From Nocardioidaceae bacterium (lineage in GTDB: Bacteria > Actinomycetota > Actinomycetes > Propionibacteriales > Nocardioidaceae): a DNA stretch of 64,000 nt. The stretch is taken from positions 379,881-443,880 of the forward strand of contig JAUJOD010000002.1 in NCBI GenBank assembly GCA_030447865.1. Reading direction: 5' to 3'. Shown in pieces: positions 37,620 through 44,579 of the stretch; position 1 is the first letter of the stretch; each line of letters starts with the position of its first letter. Both the position numbers and the translations under genes were made by a program. Under the pieces are notes generated by a model that saw only the letters and a program-made list of their open reading frames with translations, was not told where the DNA came from and did no database searches.

Positions 37620-39614
37620 TCACCAGTAAATCGGCAGTCTGGGCGAACGCGCGCCGGTCGGAGGCACCCCGAACTTCTGCAGGGTCGCCGCCATCAGGTC
37701 GTGGAACACCGGTCCGCCGGTTGCCCCTCCGCCGTTGCCGTCACGCGGCTCGTGAACGGCGACGTACACCACGAAGCGGGGGTCGTCGGCCGGTGCGAAA
37801 CCCGCGAAAGAGACGGTGAACGAGCCGTCGTAGCAACCGCACGACTCGTCAACGCGCTGGGCGGTGCCCGTCTTCCCGGCGACGCGGTAGCCGGCGATGT
37901 TGGCGTCCGGCGCGGTGCCCTCATCGCCGACCACCTGCTCCATCATCGCCGCGACCTGGTCGGCGGCGCGCTCGCTCACCACCCGGTGCTCGGCGGGTGG
38001 TGGCGCCGGGGAGTAGCCACCGTCGCTGTCGACGTACCCCTGGACCAGCGACGGTTGGACGTATCTGCCGCCGTTGGCCACGGCCGCGACCGCTGCGGTC
38101 ATCTGGACGGCGTTGACACTGACCCCCTGGCCGAACGCGATGGTGTCGCGAGTGATCGGCAACCAGTCTTTCGGCGCCGGCAGCAGTCCGGCGGACTCAC
38201 CATCGAGCCCCACGTCGGTGGCGCTGCCGAGGCCGAAGCTGCGCAGATAGCCGTGCAGCTGGCTGATCGGCATCTGCTCGGCGGCGAGTACCGTGCCGAT
38301 GTTGGATGACTTCGCCACCACGCCTGCTGCCGTCAACCGCAAGGTGCCGTGGCTGAAGTAGTCGTTGATGGTCGTGTCACTACGAGGCAGCGCCGACGGC
38401 ACCGAGATCTTGGTCCGGGGACCGACGTACCCGGAGTCGATCAGCGCCGCGAACGTGAGAACCTTCTGCACGCTGCCCGGCTCGTACACGTCCTGCAGCG
38501 CCCGCGACCCATAGTTGGCGGGACGGGTCTGCGTGCGCGTGTTGGGGTCGAACGTCGGGTAGTCGGCGAGCGCGAGGAGCTGTCCGGTGCGGACGTCCAT
38601 GACCACCGCGACGCCGGAGCTGCCGCGCGCCTGTGTCACCGCTTGCGCGAGCCGTCGCTGCGCGAGGAACTGCAGGTCTTGGTCGATCGTCAACCGCACA
38701 CCGGTTCCCTCGACCGGCTCGATCACGGTGCTGTCGGCCAGCGGTAGCTGCTGGCCGTCGGCTACTTCGAACGTCGCCGACCCGGCTGTGCCTGCCAGCG
38801 AGGACTCCAGCGCCGACTCGAAGCCGGCCAGCCCAGTGCCTTCCTCGCCGACGAAGCCGACCAGGTTGGCGGCGACATCGCCACCCGGGTACACCCGGGA
38901 CGTGTCCTCGTCGGCGTACACCCCTGGCAGCCGCGCGTCGCTGAGCATGGAGACGACCGCCGCTGCGCGCTCGGGTTGCACGTGCCGGGCCAGCTCGACG
39001 TACCGGGTGTTCGGCTTGCGGAGCAGCGCCACCGTCTCGATGTAGTCGGTGCCGATCTGGTCGTGGAGCAGGGTCGCGATCTTGGTCGCGTACCTCCGGG
39101 TGTACGTCGGGTCGGCCACCAGCTTGGCGGCGGCGACCGTCTCAGCGAGCGCGACCCCGTTGCGGTCGTAGATCGGTGCTCGGGGCGCGTCGATCGTGAT
39201 GGTCTTGGCGCCCTTGGCGACCGCCATCGCGGCGTAGTCGTTCTCGTCGATGCCTTGAAGCTGAATGAGCCGGGCGGCGAACAGCGATAGCACGAAGGCG
39301 ACGACACAGAAGGCGCTCCACAGCCGAAACGTCCCGGTGGCGAGTCGCAGGGTCCGCCGTCGGTTGCGCCGGCCCTGGCTCGACACGGCGGTAGCGCCGT
39401 GGGCCACCTGCGGCCGCTGCCGCTTGGCCCCAACAACCGCGCTCGGTCGGGTCACCGGGCCAGGCCGAGCAGCGGTACGGCGCTTGGTTGCCGCAGTCGC
39501 GCCGGTGCCCGTGCTTGCGCGGGCGGCGGGACGCTTGGCGTTGCGCGCAGCCGTCGTCCCCGCCGACGTACGGCCGCCGGGTCGGGCTCCACCGGGCTGC
39601 CGAGCCGAGGTCAC
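37620..39614 (-). CDS. ftsI: Septal transpeptidase FtsI (PBP3, class B)
   Basis: FtsI cross-links septal peptidoglycan with FtsW. The 664-residue protein has a long basic cytoplasmic tail (1-95, Ala/Arg/Thr-rich), one transmembrane helix (about 97-118) and the PBP dimerisation domain (IDAPRAPIYDRNGVALAE). The transpeptidase domain has the nucleophile Ser381 in SVQK, Ser436-Ser-Asn438 and Lys581-Thr-Gly. A Cys pair in DESCGCYDG near the active site is a noticeable loop. It overlaps ftsL by four bases and is followed by murE after 19 bases. The tail is unusually long and may bind cytoplasmic partners such as Wag31, by analogy. Confidence 0.95.
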   Translation of the reverse strand: MTSARQPGGARPGGRTSAGTTAARNAKRPAARASTGTGATAATKRRTAARPGPVTRPSAVVGAKRQRPQVAHGATAVSSQGRRNRRRTLRLATGTFRLWSAFCVVAFVLSLFAARLIQLQGIDENDYAAMAVAKGAKTITIDAPRAPIYDRNGVALAETVAAAKLVADPTYTRRYATKIATLLHDQIGTDYIETVALLRKPNTRYVELARHVQPERAAAVVSMLSDARLPGVYADEDTSRVYPGGDVAANLVGFVGEEGTGLAGFESALESSLAGTAGSATFEVADGQQLPLADSTVIEPVEGTGVRLTIDQDLQFLAQRRLAQAVTQARGSSGVAVVMDVRTGQLLALADYPTFDPNTRTQTRPANYGSRALQDVYEPGSVQKVLTFAALIDSGYVGPRTKISVPSALPRSDTTINDYFSHGTLRLTAAGVVAKSSNIGTVLAAEQMPISQLHGYLRSFGLGSATDVGLDGESAGLLPAPKDWLPITRDTIAFGQGVSVNAVQMTAAVAAVANGGRYVQPSLVQGYVDSDGGYSPAPPPAEHRVVSERAADQVAAMMEQVVGDEGTAPDANIAGYRVAGKTGTAQRVDESCGCYDGSFTVSFAGFAPADDPRFVVYVAVHEPRDGNGGGATGGPVFHDLMAATLQKFGVPPTGARSPRLPIYW

Positions 39615-40261
39615 CGGCCGTCCTGTCCCGAGCGCCGGTCCGGGTGCCGGTCCGGGCGGTCGGTCGTCGCGTCGACTGAGTCCGCGGGTCGGTTGCGGTC
39701 GGCCGCCGGCGCCCGCTCGACTCCGGTGCTGCCGCTGTTCCGGGTGCCCGCCGCCAGCGGCGTCGCCTTGCCGACGGAGCTCAATGTCGTTGCCGAGCCG
39801 CCGAGCACGGGTTGGTTGCCTGGCTGCCCAGCCGTTGGGACCCCGATGACCTCGCCGGTGGTGAGGGACAAGAATGCGGGGCTGTCGCCTTGCACCATGC
39901 CGATCGCAAGCGCCTCTTCAGCTACCCGCTGCGGAGCCTGTAGCCGGCCCACCGCCAGCTCCAGGTTCTGCTGTCGCAGCCGCAGGTCGGCTGCTTGATC
40001 ACGCAAATGGGTGATGGTGTACGCCCCCTGTTGCAGGGACGTGTTGAGCACCAGCAGGCCGATCAGACCGGCTACGAGCACAGCGACCACCAGCGCGACG
40101 AACGGGATCCGAGAGGCGCTCGGGGTGCCGACGGGCACCACGCTCAGTTGCGCGCGGGATGCACTCTGCGTTCGCAGCGACGGCGCACCGGACGTCCGCA
40201 GCGACTGCGCAGTCGGCGCCCTCAGCGGGCGGGCCCGGCCAGAGGCGAGGAACGAGCTCAC
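39611..40261 (-). CDS. ftsL: FtsL-like septum protein
   Basis: The 216-residue protein has a basic N-terminal tail (about 1-50), one transmembrane helix ([21 protein letters not shown]) and a leucine-zipper coiled coil ([28 protein letters not shown]). A Pro/Arg-rich tail ends the protein. This is the FtsL/FtsB-type layout, and the position between rsmH and ftsI is diagnostic. FtsL family sequence identity is always low, so the call relies on topology and synteny. Start GTG 40261 and the rsmH stop overlap in GTGA. The C-terminal extension of about 80 residues is longer than in E. coli FtsL. Confidence 0.85.
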
Positions 40262-41211
40262 GCGGCCTCCCTGATCCGTTCGGCTGCCCGCATCCGGACA
40301 GATGCCGCGCGGGGGTTGCGCTGGACCTCCTGGTCGTCGGCGGTCTCCGCCCCCCGGGTCAGCAACCGCAGCTCCGGGTCATGACCGGCCGGCACCACCG
40401 GCAAACCGATCGGTGCGGAGGACGACGCGCGCGCGACAAGAGCCTGCTTGGTGAGCCGGTCCTCCAGCGAGTGGTACGACAAGACGACGATTCGCCCTCC
40501 CACGGCAAGCGCGTCGATCGCGGCGGGGAGCGCCCGGCGTAGCGTCGAGAGCTCGTCGTTGACCTCGATCCGGAGAGCTTGGAAGGTCCGCTTGGCGGGG
40601 TTGCCGCCGGTACGTCGGGCAGCGGCAGGAATCGCGTCTCGAACGACGGCGACGAGCTGGCCGCTGGTCACGAAGGGTGTCGTCGCTCGCTCGCGAACGA
40701 TCGCCGCGGCGATCCGCCGGGCAAACCGTTCCTCGCCGTAGCGGGAGAAGATCCTCGACAAGTCGTCGACGGAGTAGGTGTTAACGACCTCAGCAGCCGT
40801 CGTGCCCGAAGAGGTGTCCATCCGCATGTCGAGCGGTGCGTCCTGGGAGTAGGCGAAACCACGCTCGACCTGGTCCAGTTGCATCGACGACACGCCTAGG
40901 TCGAACAACACACCGTGCACGCGGGCAAGCCCCAGCTCACCCAGCGTCGCCGGTAGCTGGTCGTACACCGCGTGCACCAGCGTCATCCGCGAGGAGAACC
41001 CCGCCAGCCGTCCCGCCACCCGGTCCAGGGCGTGGTGGTCCCGGTCGACCCCCACCAGGCAGGCGTCGGGGCAGTGGGCGAGCACGGCCTCGGCATGGCC
41101 GCCGAGGCCAACAGTGGCGTCAACGAAGACAGTTCCCCGGCGTTGCAAGGCCGGTGCCAGCAACGAGACCACCCGGTCGACCAGCACCGGGACGTGAAGG
41201 GCAGCAGCCAT
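40258..41211 (-). CDS. rsmH: 16S rRNA (cytosine-1402-N4) methyltransferase RsmH
   Basis: RsmH methylates C1402 of 16S rRNA. The 317-residue enzyme begins [15 protein letters not shown], with [17 protein letters not shown] (SAM loop), [43 protein letters not shown] and [18 protein letters not shown] chose ATG 41211 where homology starts; the open frame continuing to 41577 is not homologous. The start is eight bases after the stop of the newly noted 51-codon ORF, and its own ribosome site is weak, so it may depend on translation of that ORF. Confidence 0.95.
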
Positions 41212-41219
41212 CTCGGCAG

Positions 41220-41375
41220 TCAGCCAGCGAGCTTCATGAGCACCGTGAGCGCGACCGCCGCCAAGGTGGAGATCAGCGCCGACGTCGCCGCCACAGCCAG
41301 ACCGTCCTTGACCTCGTCGCGCACTCGGCGTACCGGTGGCTTGGTTGGAAGCGCCTCTGCTCCACTGCTCGACAT
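41220..41375 (-). CDS. 51-residue single-pass membrane protein in the dcw cluster
   Basis: This short ORF between mraZ and rsmH reads [25 protein letters not shown] and then the helix [26 protein letters not shown]. It has a charged cytoplasmic head, a 24-residue transmembrane helix and nothing beyond it. ATG 41375 has AAAGGG eight bases upstream. The stop is eight bases from the rsmH start, so translation of the two is probably coupled. Spacing, ribosome site, a clean membrane topology and the operon setting argue that it is expressed. No family is recognised. It could be a small divisome or wall-synthesis regulator; that is inference. Confidence 0.65.
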
Positions 41376-41530
41376 GTTCGACCCTTTGCATTCGCAGCTG
41401 ATGGGATTCGTACGGCCCAGGTCCCCGCCCGCTCCTCCAGCTGTGATCCGGCTGGCACCGGGGAAGGTGTGCCAGCAGGCGTTGAAGGGGCGGTTCGGAG
41501 ACCTCGGCGTACGACGTCCGAGATCGGCGG

Positions 41531-41968
41531 TCAGGACTGGCCTGAGCCGGGCAGCACCTCCTCCGACCAGTCCGCAAAGGCGGGTTCTTGCTCGTTGCTG
41601 TAGGAGCTCCAGGACTCGGCGTCCCAGATCTCGACCCGGTTGAAGGCGCCGATCACGACGCAGTCTCGTTCCAGGCCGGCGTAGTCGCGGAGCAGCTGCG
41701 GCAGCGTCACCCGTCCTTGCCTGTCGGCCATCTCTGCTGACGCGCCAGCAGACAACATCCGCATGAAGTCGCGCGCCCGCTTGTTGGTCACCGGTGCCTT
41801 CCTGAGCTGCTCGGTGAACGTGTTGAACTCAGCGGTTGGCCAGACGTAAAGGCATCGCTCCTGGCCTCTGGTCACGACCAACCCCTCTGCCAACTCCTCG
41901 CGGAACTTCGCCGGAAGGAACAACCTGCCCTTCTCGTCGAGGCGGGGGGTATGGGTGCCCAAGAACAT
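41531..41968 (-). CDS. mraZ: Transcriptional regulator MraZ
   Basis: MraZ represses its own operon, the division and cell-wall cluster, by binding repeats upstream. The 145-residue protein has two SpoVT/AbrB-like halves: [25 protein letters not shown] and [22 protein letters not shown]. The preferred start is ATG 41968 (MFLGTH): GGAGG lies seven bases upstream, whereas for ATG 41974 the same GGAGGT abuts the codon. The C-terminus [17 protein letters not shown] is variable. It is the first gene of the cluster and is divergent from moxR. Confidence 0.95.
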
Positions 41969-41984
41969 CGGCATACCTCCCTTC

Positions 41985-42026
41985 CTCCACCGCGCGCCAC
42001 TTTACCCCACTTCCCCCCACCGTCAA
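41985..42026 (-). promoter_or_regulatory. mraZ promoter with four-repeat MraZ box
   Basis: On the minus strand TTGACG (42021-42026) and TAAAGT (41999-42004) are separated by 16 bases, a good sigma-70-type promoter. Within and after it are four direct repeats at exact 10-bp spacing: TGGGG, TGGGG, TGGCG, TGGAG (42015-42019, 42005-42009, 41995-41999, 41985-41989). TGGGN repeats with five-base spacers are the known MraZ target, so MraZ should block its own promoter. Confidence 0.82.
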
Positions 42027-43166: not shown

Positions 43167-44579
43167 GTGCGCTCAGCGCTTACCACCCTGACCATCCGGG
43201 GCCGCGCCTTCTTGTCGGCAGGCGTGACCAGTGCTGGCTGTGCGGTGCTGCTCGGGCAGCGCGACCTGTTGCGGGTGGGTGTGCTCCTCGTGCTGCTCCC
43301 CCTGATCACGGCGCTGCTCACCAACCGGTCTCGCTACCTGTTGGCGAGCTCACGAGACATCACCCCCGCGCGCATCCAGGTGGGTCAGACGGCGACTGTC
43401 ACCATCCGGCTCGACAACCCCGGCCGCGTCCCCACCGGCCTGATGTTGCTCGAAGACTCAGTCCCCTACGTCTTGGGGAGCCGGCCGCGCTTCGTACTCG
43501 ACCAGCTGCGGCCACGATGGCATCGGGAGATGTCCTACAGCATCCGCTCGGAGGTGCGCGGGCGCTATCACGTCGGCCCGCTCACCGTCCGGCTCAGCGA
43601 CCCGTTCGGCCTGGTCGAGCTCACCCGGGCGTTCACCTCTGAGACCGGGCTCGTGGTCACGCCGATCGTCGTACCACTGCCGCGGGTTCGGCTGTCGGGC
43701 GACTGGTCGGGCACCGGTGAGAACCGGCCGCGTGCGTTCGCCGCGGCCGGCACTGAGGACGTTACGGTTCGGGAGTATCGCCTCGGTGATGACCTTCGGC
43801 GCATCCACTGGGCCTCCACAGCGCGTGCCGACGAGCTGATGGTGCGGCGGGAGGAGCAACCGCACCAAAGCCGCGCCACCGTGGTGATCGACACCCGAGC
43901 CAGTGCACACCGGGGCACCGGTCCTGCGTCGTCGTTCGAGTACGCCGTCTCCGCCACGGCCTCGATCGGGTCCCACCTGGCAGAGCACGGTTTCACCGTC
44001 CGCATGCTCACCGACGACACCCGGTCAGCCGACACCGCGTGGCACGACCGCGGGATCAGTGGGCCGGCCGAAGTCGAGACGTTGCTTGACGCGCTTGCCG
44101 TCGTCCAACCCAGCTCCCGGACGAGCTTCGCTCCCTCGTCGGTCGACCGTAACTCGACCGGCCTGGTAGTTGCTGTTGTCGGCCAGTTGACGCGCAACGA
44201 CGTTGCGACCCTGTCGAGCCTGCGTGCCGGAGCTACCCGTGCGCTCGCAATCGTCGTCGACACGGCGGCGTGGGGCCGGTCGTCCGCCGCAGGGGCGGGG
44301 AGCCGGTCATCCGCCGCAGGGGCGGGGAGCCGGTCGTCCACCGCAGGGGCGGGGAGCCGGTCGTCCACCGCAGGGGCGGGGAGCCGGTCGTCCGCAGCGG
44401 GAGCTGCCCCTTCGGCAGCGGAGCAGGCCGACGCACTACGGCGGCGAGGTTGGTCGGCGGTCGTCGTGAACCCGCGCACCTCATTGGAGGCCGCCTGGCG
44501 GGAGGTTGCCGGTAGCGTCGACGCCCGTCGGGTCCGTCCAGCCACGGCTATCCTCGAGCGGGAAGGCCCAGCGGCATGA
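43167..44579 (+). CDS. DUF58 domain protein
   Basis: The 470-residue protein has two N-terminal transmembrane helices (AFLSAGVTSAGCAVLLGQRD and GVLLVLLPLITALLTN), a beta-rich domain, and the DUF58 signature PRAFAAAGTEDVTVREYRLGDDLRRIHWASTAR. A VWA-like fold follows (TVVIDTRASAHRG). A segment of four tandem nine-residue repeats (RSSAAGAGS type) lies at about 371-411 between that fold and the C-terminal helix. DUF58 proteins pair with MoxR ATPases. It begins nine bases after moxR. The repeat region is an unusual low-complexity insertion. Confidence 0.88.
   Translation: MRSALTTLTIRGRAFLSAGVTSAGCAVLLGQRDLLRVGVLLVLLPLITALLTNRSRYLLASSRDITPARIQVGQTATVTIRLDNPGRVPTGLMLLEDSVPYVLGSRPRFVLDQLRPRWHREMSYSIRSEVRGRYHVGPLTVRLSDPFGLVELTRAFTSETGLVVTPIVVPLPRVRLSGDWSGTGENRPRAFAAAGTEDVTVREYRLGDDLRRIHWASTARADELMVRREEQPHQSRATVVIDTRASAHRGTGPASSFEYAVSATASIGSHLAEHGFTVRMLTDDTRSADTAWHDRGISGPAEVETLLDALAVVQPSSRTSFAPSSVDRNSTGLVVAVVGQLTRNDVATLSSLRAGATRALAIVVDTAAWGRSSAAGAGSRSSAAGAGSRSSTAGAGSRSSTAGAGSRSSAAGAAPSAAEQADALRRRGWSAVVVNPRTSLEAAWREVAGSVDARRVRPATAILEREGPAA
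44277..44400 (+). repeat. 27-bp tandem repeat within the DUF58 gene
   Basis: Four full units (44277-44303, 44304-44330, 44331-44357, 44358-44384) and a partial fifth are nearly identical. Each unit keeps the reading frame and encodes a nine-residue Ser/Gly/Ala/Arg unit. Units differ by single substitutions, so copy number may vary between strains. Confidence 0.9.

Follow-up and report, generated by a model that had tools for sequence, protein, structure and literature searches.

A conserved small membrane protein encoded between the mraW RNA motif and rsmH in the dcw cluster of Nocardioidaceae

The mraW RNA motif (Rfam RF01746) sits between mraZ and rsmH (mraW) and is named after the gene that follows it (Weinberg et al., 2010; PMC2864571). 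Mapped starts of the mraW transcript are located near the 3′ end of the motif, or downstream of it, in both Corynebacterium glutamicum (PMC3890552) and C. diphtheriae (PMC5784534); these positions raise the question of whether the motif acts as an RNA of the mraW transcript, as an RNA of the mraZ transcript, or as DNA. In the stretch of DNA analyzed here (the window; 64,000 nucleotides of contig JAUJOD010000002.1 from a Nocardioidaceae bacterium), the motif has the same location, but the first gene behind it encodes a small membrane protein and is not mraW/rsmH; this small ORF lies directly behind the motif.

The small protein can be compared with several described systems. Escherichia coli Blr and Caulobacter SidA are bitopic division proteins of less than about 60 residues that have one transmembrane (TM) helix and are encoded outside the dcw cluster. 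The likeness is one of layout: the small protein has the dimensions of a small bitopic regulator (51 residues and a single helix, 18–50, where such regulators have fewer than 100 residues) and possibly a helix partner in the divisome. Unlike Blr and SidA, its helix is C-terminal, and its gene is operon-linked to rsmH. FtsL and DivIC are small bitopic membrane proteins of the dcw cluster with the N terminus inside, a description that the small protein would share; however, it has only about three residues after its helix and, therefore, no extracytoplasmic coiled coil, and an ftsL-like gene exists separately after rsmH. Translationally coupled leader ORFs share with the small ORF a start signal on the first ORF and a stop codon placed where the following cistron begins; the small ORF differs from them because it encodes a conserved membrane protein and contains no regulatory codon run.

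The small ORF and its neighbors

The locus is encoded on the minus strand in the order mraZ (41531..41974; PF02381, E 3.6e-41), mraW RNA (41407..41512), start signal (41376..41387), small ORF (41220..41375; 51 aa, with an ATG start and support from homologues, selection, and AlphaFold2), and rsmH (mraW), encoding the 16S rRNA methyltransferase (40258..41211; PF01795, E 7e-109). After rsmH, on the same strand, is the gene for a 216-residue bitopic protein (39611..40261) with one TM segment followed by a heptad-like segment; it has no Pfam match, and its likeness to FtsL is one of position and layout. The ftsI gene in the cluster is confirmed by Pfam. The small ORF as a displaced ftsL was considered and ruled out, because the ftsL-like gene is present downstream of rsmH.

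Two further features were observed. At 41990–42025, upstream of mraZ, three CCCCAC-like boxes with 10-nt spacing are located on the plus strand, that is, GTGGGG-N4-GTGGGG-N4-GTGGCG on the coding strand; these resemble MraZ operator repeats. A DUF58-like ORF (43167–44579) carries a tandem (SRSS[AT]AGAG)n repeat at 44230–44480; because of this low-complexity insert, open frames persist on both strands.

The match to RF01746 in the window is full-length (model 1–107), on the correct strand, and inside the mraZ–rsmH gap; its score (36.3 bits, E 4.4e-5) falls below the 50-bit gathering threshold. Relatives (L005, L019, L114, L116, L119, and L134) score >50 bits at the same place. An earlier note on this DNA, made from the sequence, missed both the mraW RNA and the conserved start signal, which explain the layout of the locus. 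The coordinates that it gave for the ORF are confirmed: the 51 codons are preceded by AAAGGG (41382–41387, six bases upstream of the start), and the stop codon is located 8 nt before the rsmH ATG at 41211.

The charged head and single helix described in the same note are also as we find them. The protein runs from a variable N-terminus through an RRVR-xx-V-(R/K)-DG motif to a helix, its one hydrophobic segment, that ends about three residues from the C terminus; AlphaFold2 predicts a single helix (18–50) with a pLDDT of about 97 in the membrane part. Because the positive-inside rule places a basic head on the cytoplasmic side, the head would be cytoplasmic and the protein tail-anchored, with the N terminus inside. 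In the family alignment, R17 and R19 are invariant, S32 and S36 are 97% conserved, and D24, V28, S32, S36, and A40 are almost invariant and spaced on an i+4 ladder. The most conserved membrane positions (V28, S32, S36, and A40, each four apart) form a small-residue ladder typical of packing helices; a permutation test for helical periodicity of conservation was not significant (p 0.12).

The small protein matches no family in Pfam or NCBIfam above the curated cut-off; searches of these databases with 23 family members gave scattered weak matches only (best E 0.015), and look-alike TM ORFs from other families were likewise below the cut-off in Pfam. Comparison with solved structures gave only chance-level matches, mostly to ribosomal protein S11, and Foldseek gave no match, a search in which a lone helix is uninformative. 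RNA structure within the ORF region is nothing special (folding z-score −1.17), and none of the papers covered by our literature search describes a small protein in the mraZ–rsmH gap.

Conservation and selection

The first search covered 58 relatives and recovered the frame between mraZ and rsmH in 24 genomes (E 5e-26 to 0.008); the count was then extended with a profile (alignment A1) and by direct reading of the regions upstream of rsmH. An in-frame homologue is located between mraZ and rsmH in 28 of the 35 assessable Nocardioidaceae genomes (21 of 25 genera), so the conserved short frame that the earlier note proposed to look for in these gaps is found. In sister family f2, a homologue occupies the gap in one of five genomes (HMM E 7e-12); in sister family f4, each of the seven genomes sampled has a homologue, recognized from its position and by profile (E 2.6e-5 and 4.4e-5 for two of them; composition-controlled p 0.0003–0.009 for four). 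The claim of homology extends no further than these sister families.

The R(V/I)R motif is invariant, and exactly 35 residues separate it from the stop in 49 of 59 distinct copies. For nine disjoint pairs, pN/pS is 0.46 in the ORF frame vs 1.50 and 1.63 in the shifted frames, and codon positions 1, 2, and 3 contain 46, 35, and 85 differences, respectively; as judged from these alignments, the synonymous/nonsynonymous comparison suggested in the earlier note shows purifying selection in the ORF frame only. The region holds many long chance frames, as expected if the ORF were spurious in GC-rich DNA, an explanation to which we give virtually no credence; conservation, selection, and synteny all contradict it, and the conserved frame in 21 genera refutes it.

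Frameshifts or stops in close relatives, or no conserved frame in relatives generally, would have counted against the ORF according to the earlier note. The frame is intact within the genus: genome G001 differs from the ORF of the window by three synonymous changes and one Ile-to-Val replacement in 51 codons. A near-identical locus is found in JAUJOE010000001 (‘Nocardioidaceae bacterium isolate YX3bin1’). The membrane segment is missing in four other genera and in one or more species of a fifth; seven Nocardioidaceae genomes lack it (G004, G009, G013, G021, G031, G034, and G036, the last from one species of a genus that otherwise carries the ORF). Because the membrane segment is missing in several Nocardioidaceae genera and in most other families, the protein has proved dispensable in evolution and is not a core part of the division machinery.

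The start signal and probable coupling to rsmH

The start signal in the window, AAAGGGTCGAAC, is the local form of a conserved (G)AAGGGTCGAnATG element. GGGTCG is found 6–13 nt ahead of an ORF start in 61 of 80 Nocardioidaceae loci (partly redundant), with a background of 0.06 per locus; outside the family, GAAGGGTCGAGATG or a near form begins the small TM ORFs in f2, f4, f10, f12, f24, and f28. In genomes that lack the ORF, the signal starts rsmH itself (G004 in the Nocardioidaceae, G045 in f2, and three genomes of f3), as it does in ORF-less members of f9, f12 (including G089), f13, f33, and f40. Because the signal begins the ORF where the ORF is present and rsmH where it is absent, the ORF stands between rsmH and the usual signal of rsmH; from this comparison of loci, the small ORF appears to have taken over the rsmH start signal.

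In the window, rsmH has no recognizable Shine-Dalgarno sequence (duplex −3.4 kcal/mol vs a random-site median of −4.4), in agreement with the weak site reported in the earlier note. By the same measure, the AAAGGG of the ORF is also weak in this genome (−4.3); the family median for the ORF ribosome site is −8.3, but choosing the start with the best site biases this value. The stops of signal-anchored TM ORFs are located −4 to +16 nt from an in-frame rsmH start in all 58 distinct cases; shuffled sequences are expected to place 17.2 of 58 stops within −12 to +16 nt. The layout is that of a leader cistron: the first ORF carries the initiation signal, and its stop is near the next start or overlaps it. 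This layout makes it likely that the small ORF is translationally coupled to rsmH.

Many GC-rich actinobacterial genes initiate without a Shine-Dalgarno sequence, and rsmH could do so as well; in that case, a functional small protein would merely be sited in the operon, with rsmH initiating independently. The variation in stop–start spacing within the 20-nt range given above is compatible with this explanation, but the spacing is tight, and the ORF, in loci that have one, holds the start signal that otherwise belongs to rsmH, which is then signal-less; we consider independent initiation quite improbable.

Of the seven Nocardioidaceae genomes that lack the membrane segment, five (G009, G013, G021, G031, and G034) retain a leader of 13 to 32 codons that has an overlap of 1 to 8 nt with the rsmH start. 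The leaders of G009 and G031 end in VREAAR and VREVAR, as if the motif had been truncated ahead of the helix. Such frames are what would be expected of a pure leader ORF, that is, one in which the act of translation sets the output of rsmH, perhaps in concert with the mraW RNA, while the peptide is functionless and degraded. A leader in family f3 points in the same direction: in G041 it begins MDGAER, as do the RsmH N-termini of G043 and G046, and it resembles a detached copy of that N-terminus. The G041 leader probably arose by such a detachment, a likely case of the birth of a leader cistron by frameshift. However, a pure leader is unlikely for the small ORF, given the conservation of its residues (R17, R19, S32, and S36), its fixed length, and its pN/pS; also, a pure leader has no need of a membrane helix, yet TM ORFs recur at this position in eight further families. 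Among the f3 loci L118, L120, and L123, the MDGAER extension is fused to rsmH in two and takes the form of a 35-aa leader frame in the third.

The reading that we favor, with moderate confidence, is that a tail-anchored small protein under selection is produced from the leader cistron of rsmH, is translationally coupled to rsmH, and packs its helix on a membrane partner. In this view, the rsmH-ftsL-ftsI portion of the dcw operon would have the ORF as its leader cistron. Ribosomes would enter at the conserved start signal, which closely follows the mraW RNA, and would synthesize a product whose basic head stays in the cytoplasm and whose single membrane helix is C-terminal; having terminated 8 nt ahead of the rsmH start, they would re-initiate at that start. 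The small protein would probably pack its helix against a partner encoded by the same mRNA, most plausibly FtsL, FtsI, FtsW, or MraY. The earlier note had proposed a small division or wall regulator whose translation feeds rsmH; the conserved single-helix protein is upheld and the layout strongly suggests the passage to rsmH, but any part in division or wall synthesis, regulatory or otherwise, is a reasonable guess from operon context only.

A hydrophobic first cistron that heads an operon of membrane proteins might also be explained by nascent-chain targeting, in which the membrane helix carries the dcw mRNA to the membrane as it is translated. We regard this as highly improbable and rejected it: the helix ends so close to the C terminus that it remains in the ribosome tunnel at termination and, therefore, can hardly tether the mRNA.

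Membrane ORFs at the junction in other lineages

Outside the Nocardioidaceae (f1) and f4, a TM ORF ends shortly before rsmH in 11 of 32 mraZ–rsmH gaps of at least 250 nt, vs an expectation of 0.0 from dinucleotide shuffles (one of the 11 is the f2 homologue); in gaps of <250 nt, the count is 0 of 30. These junction ORFs are conserved within f12, f14, and f28. Among loci mostly from other classes, 2 of 30 have a junction TM ORF. Two phylum-level loci outside the class, L113 and L090, have TM ORFs of 47 and 62 aa between mraZ and rsmH; many of the gaps outside the class are <80 nt.

TM ORFs from f12, f14, f10, f28, f37, and f41 and from two loci outside the class were compared for homology. In hhalign, f12 and f14 have no homology with the Nocardioidaceae family (prob 1.4%); in a composition-controlled PSSM comparison, a weaker test, p values for the other-family TM ORFs are scattered from 0.003 to 0.6. 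Either a single fast-evolving family or repeated origin fits these results. As a broader conjecture, which we offer tentatively and with more doubt than belief, small tail-anchored membrane proteins may have arisen repeatedly at the mraW RNA–rsmH junction across Actinomycetota; each new cistron would take the old rsmH signal and feed rsmH, so that the mraW RNA would primarily control a small protein that tunes septal wall synthesis and 16S rRNA methylation.

Few bacterial operons have been studied as closely as the dcw cluster, and still it holds a conserved protein outside Pfam and NCBIfam. In the lineages that carry the ORF, the mraW RNA gains a different immediate target; sister genera in which the ORF is present, absent, or reduced to a bare leader provide a natural experiment on the RNA and on coupling.
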